A stretch of 41,056 nucleotides of DNA from a virus. Under the pieces are notes generated by a model. The model saw only the letters and a program-made list of their open reading frames with translations. It did not search any database and was not told the DNA's origin. A program made the translations under genes and the position numbers. This document shows, piece by piece, positions 7,952 to 18,655 of the stretch (the first letter of the stretch is position 1; every line of letters starts with the position of its first letter). Location: the IMG/VR virus record IMGVR_UViG_3300042887_002870, positions 1-41,056 of that record. One strand, written 5' to 3'.

Positions 7952-8053
7952 CAGGTGATATATTAAGAGTGACGGCTTGGCTTTGACATTTGTCAACTGT
8001 AGCAGTGCTTAAAATAGCAATGTAAAAATTTATAAAAATTTTAGAAAATAGTG

Positions 8054-8082
8054 TTGACTTATCGGCGACTATAGACGATGAT
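8054..8082 (+). promoter_or_regulatory. Promoter P8054
   Basis: TTGACT, 17-bp spacer, GATGAT followed by the usual ATATATATAAG tract; it drives the 8122 gene. Confidence 0.75.
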
Positions 8083-8121
8083 ATATATATAAGTGATAGA
8101 GAAGTCCAAAGGGGAATGATC

Positions 8122-8289
8122 ATGAAAGTGTACGTGATATACGGTGGGCATATCGGGGAATGTTGGGTAGAATATGTATATGCTACATTTGAACTAGCCT
8201 ATGCCCATTTTGATAACTACTACGGAATGTCGCATAACCAAAAAATAGAAGCCATTCATGAATTTGAAGTTTTAACTTCTATCTCTTGA
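8122..8289 (+). CDS. Hypothetical 55-residue protein
   Basis: AAGGGGA lies ahead of ATG 8122; an in-frame ATG at 8116 is possible. The product starts MKVYVIYGGHIGECWVEYV, with a beta-strand and aromatic-rich pattern like the small phage proteins that begin VYVV. Its stop TGA forms the middle of the TTGACA box of the next promoter, a tight junction repeated many times in this genome. Confidence 0.7.
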   Translation: MKVYVIYGGHIGECWVEYVYATFELAYAHFDNYYGMSHNQKIEAIHEFEVLTSIS

Positions 8290-13628: not shown

Positions 13629-13694
13629 TGATCATGTCGTCTAATGTAAGACTGGTAGCAATATCACAATGCGGGTTCGAATCCCGCCATGATC
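13629..13694 (+). tRNA. tRNA-like gene with shortened anticodon arm
   Basis: The acceptor GATCATG/CATGATC and the T-arm GCGGG TTCGAAT CCCGC are perfect and the D-arm is GTC...GAC. Only 18 bases separate D and T arms, where about 22 are normal. The best anticodon stem is four pairs (TGGT/ATCA) with a six-base loop and no T at position 33. It is either a decayed tRNA or a tRNA mimic; no anticodon can be assigned. Confidence 0.55.
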
Positions 13695-13751
13695 ATTCTG
13701 ACAACTGTGTCAGGTTCCTGTATCAATGTTCACTATTCAAGGTGAAACGCT

Positions 13752-15732: not shown

Positions 15733-15812
15733 GCGTGTTGACCGAGTTGGATAACGGGCCTGACTGTAAATCAGGTGTCTCAGACTTAAGAGGTTCGAGT
15801 CCTACCTGATCA
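15733..15812 (+). tRNA. tRNA-Tyr(GTA) with non-pairing acceptor stem
   Basis: The anticodon arm CCTGA CTGTAAA TCAGG gives GTA, and a long variable arm (GTCT/AGAC) fits a class II Tyr tRNA. The D-arm CCG...CGG is present. But the T-stem pairs only partly (AGAGG/CCTAC) and the expected acceptor strands GCGTGTT and CTGATCA do not pair. It may be decayed, edited or trans-assembled; ends are approximate. Confidence 0.55.
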
Positions 15813-15869
15813 GCTCCGCCACCATGTGTGGTTGGAAATCGTGGGGACCATTAACGTGGCCCCTAGTAT

Positions 15870-17737: not shown

Positions 17738-18061
17738 ATGATCGCTAATTTGACCGCTGGTAACAAAGTCAAGTTCCAGTATATTGACCGTGTTCGTGAC
17801 TATTCAGTTTTTCCAACTGCTACTTCTTATGACATCGACACTTACGAAGGTACTGTTGTTGATGTACGAGATATTAGCATTGATAAGTTGTCACGAGAAA
17901 CTGTTGCTCGTCATCCAGAAGTTGAGCGGTCACGATACTTGGTGACTATACAGTTGTCAGACAACAAGATCAAGTCATTCTATGACGGTCGAGTTGTCAA
18001 CATCAAGAAAATTAACAAGAATTTTATCTCACGACTAGTTGACAAGTTGACTGGTAAGTGA
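17738..18061 (+). CDS. Hypothetical 107-residue protein
   Basis: GAGGATTGAG precedes ATG 17738. The first half looks like an SH3-like or small beta-barrel (NLTAGNKVKFQYIDRVRDY, then YEGTVVDVRDI), the rest is charged. No family is recognised. Its end carries the -35 and spacer of the tRNA promoter. Confidence 0.75.
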   Translation: MIANLTAGNKVKFQYIDRVRDYSVFPTATSYDIDTYEGTVVDVRDISIDKLSRETVARHPEVERSRYLVTIQLSDNKIKSFYDGRVVNIKKINKNFISRLVDKLTGK

Positions 18062-18067
18062 TATAAT
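18039..18067 (+). promoter_or_regulatory. Promoter P18039 for tRNA cluster, embedded in CDS
   Basis: TTGACA, 17-bp spacer, TATAAT; the stop of the 17738 gene is in the spacer. Confidence 0.87.
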
Positions 18068-18098: not shown

Positions 18099-18172
18099 GG
18101 TGCTGTAGCCTAAGTGGCAAAGGCATTCGGTTGTCAACCGAAAGATAGCGGGTTCAAATCCCGTCAGCACCG
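18099..18172 (+). tRNA. tRNA-Asp(GTC)
   Basis: The acceptor GGTGCTG/CAGCACC and anticodon arm TTCGG TTGTCAA CCGAA are canonical. A GTGTGG...CCACAC leader hairpin precedes it. Confidence 0.94.
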
Positions 18173-18177
18173 CTTAT

Positions 18178-18250
18178 GCCCCCATCGTCTAGTGGCCTAG
18201 GACGCAAGGTTTTCAACCTTGAGACCGGAGTTCAATTCTCCGTGGGGGTA
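18178..18250 (+). tRNA. tRNA-Glu(TTC)
   Basis: The acceptor GCCCCCA/TGGGGGT, D-arm GTCTAGTGGCCTAGGAC and anticodon arm CAAGG TTTTCAA CCTTG are canonical for Glu. Confidence 0.93.
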
Positions 18251-18252
18251 CT

Positions 18253-18376
18253 GACCATATGCCAGAGTGATAATGGACTTGTTATGCAAAATGGCCGATC
18301 AGTTTTTTACATCACTTGCGAATGATATAGACGAACAAGCAAGCAAGTATCTCAGGTTTGATTCCTGATATGGTCT
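18253..18376 (+). tRNA. Interrupted tRNA (possibly Cys) with ~55-nt insert
   Basis: The acceptor GACCATA/TATGGTC and T-arm TCAGG TTTGATT CCTGA are perfect and the D-arm is CCA...TGG. The length is 124 nt. The strands ACTTG and CAAGT, which would form the anticodon stem, are 62 nt apart. Removing about 18284-18338 would leave loop TT-GCA-AG, i.e. Cys, an isotype otherwise missing here. The repeated CAAGCAAG makes the boundary uncertain. Confidence 0.6.
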
Positions 18377-18379
18377 TAT

Positions 18380-18468
18380 GCGAGTGTGGCGAAATTGGCG
18401 AAACGCCTCGGACTTAAAATCCGAGACCCAAGCGGTAAACATTGTGGGTTCGAGTCCCACCACTCGTA
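18380..18468 (+). tRNA. tRNA-Leu(TAA)
   Basis: The acceptor GCGAGTG/CACTCGT, anticodon arm TCGGA CTTAAAA TCCGA and a long variable arm are canonical for class II Leu. Confidence 0.93.
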
Positions 18469-18505: not shown

Positions 18506-18543
18506 AGGCCGCCTTGTTCTCGTTGAATGAGGCGGCTCCTTTT
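18506..18543 (+). terminator. Hairpin between tRNA-Leu and tRNA-Arg
   Basis: GAGGCCGCCT and AGGCGGCTCC pair around a 15-base loop and run into TTTT; it could be a terminator or a processing hairpin. Confidence 0.5.
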
Positions 18544-18545
18544 AT

Positions 18546-18618
18546 GCAGTCGTAGCCTAGTGGATGAGGCATCAGATTTCTACTCTGTTTTACGAGGGTT
18601 CGAATCCTTCCGACTGTA
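18546..18618 (+). tRNA. tRNA-Arg(TCT)
   Basis: The acceptor GCAGTCG/CGACTGT and anticodon loop TTTCTAC give TCT; the T-arm is GAGGG TTCGAAT CCTTC. Confidence 0.9.
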
Positions 18619-18624
18619 CTTTAT

Positions 18625-18655
18625 AAAGCCACTGCGAAAGCGGTGGCTTTTTTCG
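18625..18655 (+). terminator. Rho-independent terminator after tRNA cluster
   Basis: The stem AAGCCACTGC/GCGGTGGCTT around GAAA is followed by TTTTTT. Confidence 0.88.

Follow-up and report, generated by a model that had tools for sequence, protein, structure and literature searches.

A tRNA-Cys-derived element with an enlarged anticodon arm in a phage tRNA operon: a candidate RNA-processing relic rather than an intron-containing tRNA gene

RNase P and the enzymes that form tRNA 3' ends recognize the acceptor stem, the T arm and the D/T elbow of their substrates; the anticodon arm is not required. Interruptions of tRNA genes are known from several systems. The canonical position of archaeal and eukaryotic tRNA introns is 37/38 (PMC4090602). 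According to a 2014 review, the group I introns of phages all reside in protein genes, despite the many tRNA genes that phages carry (PMC3984707). In bacterial Y RNAs, a tRNA-like module is joined to a stem that binds Ro60 (PMC8394870). Here we describe an interrupted, tRNA-derived element at positions 18253-18376 (plus strand) of an uncultured phage record of 41 kb (41,056 nt, referred to as the window), which is probably a fragment of a larger genome, a syntenic relative measuring 155 kb.

The element is a real tRNA-derived gene. When the stretch was scanned alone, the Rfam tRNA covariance model (RF00005) aligned with it end to end (model positions 1-71) and yielded a score of 38.8 bits at a cut-off of 29. 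Whole-window Rfam scans did not report it, presumably because of their speed filters. ARAGORN called 19 tRNAs in the window, this element not among them; the intron-aware tRNA calling recommended in the initial annotation also missed it when carried out with ARAGORN and introns allowed. The acceptor strands GACCATA (18253-18259) and TATGGTC (18369-18375) pair over 7 bp and the T arm (TCAGG-TTTGATT-CCTGA, 18352-18368, plus strand) over 5 bp, both as perfectly as had been annotated. A scan of the window for 7-bp acceptor stems abutting 5-bp T arms yielded 20 sites, with none on the minus strand and none in 30 shuffled windows. The core positions U8, A14, G15 with C48, G18, A21 and A58 are all present.

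The D arm (CCA-GAGTGATAA-TGG, 18262-18276, plus strand) has A at position 19 and the T loop U at position 56, and this A19:U56 pair replaces the normally near-invariant elbow pair G19:C56. Viral contigs were searched for the variant (AGTGATAA followed by GGTTTGATTCC), and the matches were checked by ARAGORN. The pattern occurred at 52 loci, 35 of which were tRNAs sharing the D loop and U56 of the element; these included two tRNA-Cys(GCA). Since 35 of the 52 loci are tRNAs, the elbow is a matched exchange with which the upper RNA body should fold; by this sequence comparison, A19:U56 is a genuine tRNA variant and not a sign of decay. Cysteine is the likeliest isotype, judging by U at position 73 (T at 18376), the GCCA-AGTGATAA D arm and the ATGCAAA that follows the 5' strand of the anticodon stem. 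T73 also occurs in the tRNA-Gln of the window at 38156, U73 not being exclusive to Cys in this phage, and the isotype is therefore a reading of these features rather than a proven identity. No other tRNA-Cys was found within the window, in agreement with the initial annotation.

In the covariance-model alignment the anticodon stem consists of CUUGU (18278-18282) and GCAAG (18343-18347), the latter followed by the variable loop UAUC (all on the plus strand). The 60 nt between the strands (18283-18342, with ATGCAAA at 18284-18290) replace the 7-nt anticodon loop, an excess of about 53 nt, and a readable 7-nt anticodon loop is not formed. The stem had been annotated as ACTTG and CAAGT; both strands are present (18277-18281 and 18345-18349), their spacing is 63 nt instead of the 62 nt reported, and the model prefers the CUUGU/GCAAG pairing. 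The insert alone is unstructured (folding z of +0.88 relative to shuffled sequence), and the arm with its outer 5 bp fixed folds no better than shuffled sequence (z of +0.39). A small ORF across the insert (MDLLCKMADQFFTSLANDIDEQASKYLRFDS) was considered and rejected: it has no phage homolog, no Shine-Dalgarno sequence was seen, and its length is not unusual by our estimate. Identity as a tmRNA was rejected as well, given that ARAGORN finds none and that the open frame through the insert, lacking a phage homolog, stops within the T arm.

The initial annotation proposed that the insert is spliced out. Such a small intron of 51-55 nt, removed by protein-based cutting and ligation to give a working tRNA-Cys(GCA), is in our judgment quite improbable. 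An excision has to be assumed before GCA stands at positions 34-36 of a 7-nt loop, and several different cuts lead to Cys(GCA). Possible excisions were enumerated by requiring a 5-bp stem and U33. Removal of 18284-18338, the cut originally suggested, does give a product that ARAGORN accepts as tRNA-Cys; this product (loop TTGCAAG) lacks base 26, has a variable loop of only 3 nt and is one among several. Removal of 18290-18340 (51 nt, or shifted by 1-2) is also accepted by ARAGORN and speaks best for splicing, as it leaves the textbook Cys loop ATGCAAA, a 5-bp stem and a 5-nt variable loop with the interruption at about the canonical 37/38 site, but it requires two bases at position 26. No excision gives strictly canonical length (one base 26 and a variable loop of 4-5 nt). 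Because several excisions are possible, the splice product is not fixed by the sequence.

Hallmarks of an intron are likewise missing, whether self-splicing or of the bulge-helix-bulge (BHB) type. The BHB pattern (a 4-bp helix between two 3-nt bulges) had five loose matches, none with an acceptable anticodon loop. Neither the window scans nor the local Rfam scans matched a group I or group II intron, for which the possible insert of 51-55 nt is too short, and group I introns were not known from any phage tRNA gene as of the 2014 review (PMC3984707). A tRNA splicing endonuclease and RtcB were not found in the window, itself a fragment, or in the records of the two relatives described below; a search for T4-type Rnl1 gave no match, and neither did its controls. 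Points in favor of splicing are that the anticodon-stem strands still match, that Cys codons, at 17 per 1000, cannot be called rare, and that the 155-kb relative (G002) encodes an Rnl2-type RNA ligase (104311-105408, minus strand; Pfam RNA_ligase E 1.5e-29). The ligase gene lies close to the position that the Ro60 gene occupies in the window. A more specific version, in which a phage-specific intron of about 51 nt at 37/38 would hide the tRNA-Cys from anticodon nucleases until spliced by an undescribed cut-and-ligate route, is very improbable. If spliced, the element would to our knowledge provide the first phage tRNA with a small intron removed by proteins.

The element had further been counted as a third interrupted tRNA, also of 124 nt, with a maturation route shared by all three. 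The interruption was confirmed. Regarding the length, it is shared with only one of the other two elements (30983-31106, 124 nt; the other, 30802-30892, has 91-92 nt), and the equality looks coincidental. A shared route finds no support in the inserts themselves. Both other elements contain AGTCTAATATA...GTGATCA...TGATAT...ATTGGATTACAAT, which forms a 10-bp arm, and are strongly structured (folding z of -3.3 and -2.4), compared with a z of about 0 for 18253-18376. Ordered words common to all three inserts were no better than chance (p 0.12 against shuffled sequence), and a common element was rejected. In 30802-30892 the AGTCTAATATA element makes up the entire anticodon arm and is thus not an intron within a normal one.

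The elements at 30802 and 30983 are located directly downstream of a Ro60/Rsr-like gene (28843-30348; Pfam vWA_Ro60 1e-17, PDB Rsr 2nvo 2e-12, TROVE proteins) and 12 kb from the Cys element. The Ro60-like RNA-binding protein is 36% identical to one encoded by Myxococcus phage Mx1; a search by peptide pattern yielded no IMG/VR relative. Four hairpin RNAs with the stem motif GAAATGA...CUACAAU...UG-UUC (30349-30415, 30562-30638, 30711-30800 and 30893-30980) alternate with tRNA-Met, tRNA-Gly and the two tRNA-like RNAs. These hairpins are probably Y RNAs; the one at 30893-30980 gives a weak hit to YrlA in which the conserved motif is aligned, its 19.6 bits falling short of the cut-off of 69. The 30802 and 30983 elements are then probably another kind of RNA and parts of this Ro60/Y-RNA neighborhood; on this reading, the case for a single tRNA maturation route common to all three falls away.

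This neighborhood also bears on the idea that the Cys element serves specifically as a regulatory, tRNA-like RNA or as a decoy, whether of the Y-RNA type or as bait for anticodon nucleases, with the enlarged arm as its functional part. The phage does encode a Ro60-like protein and further long-armed tRNA-like RNAs, and a two-armed tRNA-like RNA of 107 nt exists in relatives. The Cys element, however, is 10 kb away from the Ro60 gene and lacks the stem motif of the Y RNAs; its arm is unstructured and, by the word comparison above, not related to those of the two other elements, so that we regard such a role as improbable. The 107-nt RNA (G001 26742-26848; G002 121057-121163, minus strand) is approximately 95% identical between the two related phages and consists of an acceptor stem, one long arm and a T arm, with no D arm.

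The Cys element is the third of five genes in a tRNA operon on the plus strand. A consensus sigma-70 promoter (TTGACA-17-TATAAT, 12/12, extended -10; 18039-18067) is followed by tRNA-Asp(GTC) (18099-18172) as the first gene and by tRNA-Glu(TTC) (18178-18250), which ends 2 nt ahead of the element. Downstream, tRNA-Leu(TAA) (18380-18468) starts 3 nt past the element, and tRNA-Arg(TCT) (18546-18618) is the last gene, with an intrinsic terminator (18625-18650) at the end of the operon; an additional terminator-like hairpin is found at 18507-18537. All four flanking tRNAs were identified by both ARAGORN and Rfam.

Two syntenic relatives, IMGVR 3300042868_006487 and 3300034107_000314, were the only ones found via the neighboring proteins (protein identities of 61-65%). 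Both have Ile-Glu-(Gln)-Leu-Arg at the operon site, with neither the Cys element nor a tRNA-Cys in the sequence examined. This lineage has unstable tRNA clusters: the relatives are without a Cys gene at this site, and the tRNA-Tyr of the window appears to be a Tyr/Asn chimera. This tRNA-Tyr(GTA) (15737-15820) resembles the tRNA-Tyr of the relatives in its 5' part and their tRNA-Asn in its 3' part, as if approximately 195 nt had been lost between two T arms, and its acceptor strands no longer match. In record L003, a region of about 120 nt between tRNA-Tyr and tRNA-Asn (8020-8150) contains two T-arm-like hairpins and is possibly a composite tRNA-like element. A candidate for another truncated element in the window (38560-38621) proved to belong to a normal tRNA-Ser(UGA), of which it is the 3' portion and which starts near 38540 (38540-38622); neither ARAGORN nor the gathering scan with Rfam called this probable gene.

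Searches of phage records revealed no homologs of the element. The exact element pattern, relaxed patterns for interrupted Cys tRNAs and the 5' half gave no second copy in the viral contigs of IMG/VR, and the relaxed pattern gave no relative in the bacterial and archaeal genomes of GTDB. A single metagenomic contig and the lack of another copy are what an assembly or sequencing artefact would produce; the acceptor, D and T arms that flank the insert nevertheless fit together as a single tRNA, and the element follows in proper order and register on one intact tRNA and precedes another, so that we regard an artefact as very improbable.

A second tRNA-like element illustrates how the two halves of such a molecule can separate. 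In the window it is located at 13629-13695 (plus strand) and has a degenerate lower half with a GCAA tetraloop in place of the anticodon loop. All three phages, i.e., the window and the two syntenic relatives, have a tRNA-like element upstream of the same conserved gene (13752 in the window). The lower half differs among them: the window has a D arm and the GCAA mini-hairpin, one relative has one long hairpin (65 nt), and in the other the lower half is absent and a 41-nt acceptor/T minihelix remains. In the upper half, both partners have changed in 7 of the 12 pairs, with 94% of the cells paired; none of the 500 shuffles and none of the slid versions attained this level (all values from three sequences only). 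As the double changes keep the pairs, the upper half of this element is held by its base pairing, whereas the anticodon half can change freely or be lost. A non-decoding tRNA-Cys placed between two other tRNAs could be retained on the same grounds.

The explanation that we favor, at roughly even odds, is that the Cys element is a decoding-incompetent tRNA-Cys relic in a five-gene operon, with an upper half kept for the RNase P-dependent separation of its neighbors, and that it is not spliced. An insertion of about 53 nt would have enlarged the anticodon loop of a tRNA-Cys, with the loss of decoding. Co-transcribed with four other tRNAs from one strong promoter, the element would be cut out by the normal tRNA-end enzymes, which would free tRNA-Glu and tRNA-Leu on its two sides. 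Its RNA would most likely remain an unspliced, tRNA-shaped cutting mark, and the need for processing would most likely be the reason why the upper half was retained. The processing role is argued here from the other elements (three sequences) and from known RNase P biochemistry. Against the relic stands that the anticodon stem is paired at 5 of 5 positions and that ATGCAAA is readable just ahead of the insert, a state to be expected from an intron and also from a very recent insertion.

The element being a single copy, with no second one that could show selection, a young neutral pseudogene has to be weighed as well, in which a recent insertion broke the tRNA-Cys and no selection holds the remaining upper half. 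The absence of the element from the relatives, the tRNA losses and fusions in these same clusters, and an insert without recognizable structure or homolog would all fit; all 12 pairs of the upper half are intact, however, and the elbow has changed in step at both of its positions, so that we consider this account unlikely, if still worth serious attention. Should the processing relic be correct, the element, together with the minihelices of the related phages, would show that upper tRNA halves can be retained after the loss of decoding. Two selective reasons for phage tRNA genes, translation and RNA cutting, would then be separated, and counts of phage tRNA genes should be read with the caution that they can include non-decoding copies.

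Regarding known systems, the element shares U73, the CCA-AGTGATAA-type D arm and A19:U56 with uninterrupted phage tRNA-Cys(GCA) (IMG/VR L046 and L076), from which it differs by approximately 53 extra nt between the stem strands and by the absence of an anticodon loop. The possible insert is in the size range of archaeal and eukaryotic BHB introns and has their position near 37/38 (PMC4090602), whereas the element comes from a bacterial virus, offers no BHB that gives a canonical loop and is accompanied by no splicing endonuclease that we could find. Group I introns of bacterial tRNA genes likewise interrupt the anticodon loop, but the insert is far shorter, has no Rfam match and contains no catalytic core. 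With YrlA and the other bacterial Y RNAs that act with Ro60 (Rsr), the element has a tRNA-like fold in common, and the same phage carries a Ro60-like gene and Y-RNA-like stems; unlike them, it is not near the Ro60 gene (10 kb), has no Ro60-binding stem and has free acceptor ends, and the local Rfam scan gave no YrlA match at 18253-18376. With the acceptor/T-arm minihelices that serve as RNase P substrates it shares the coaxial acceptor-T stack, the T loop and a polycistronic transcript (PMC11143913). The element differs from these substrates in being natural and in having a D arm and a large loop, and its predicted structure is compatible with RNase P cleavage at the 5' end of the acceptor stem.
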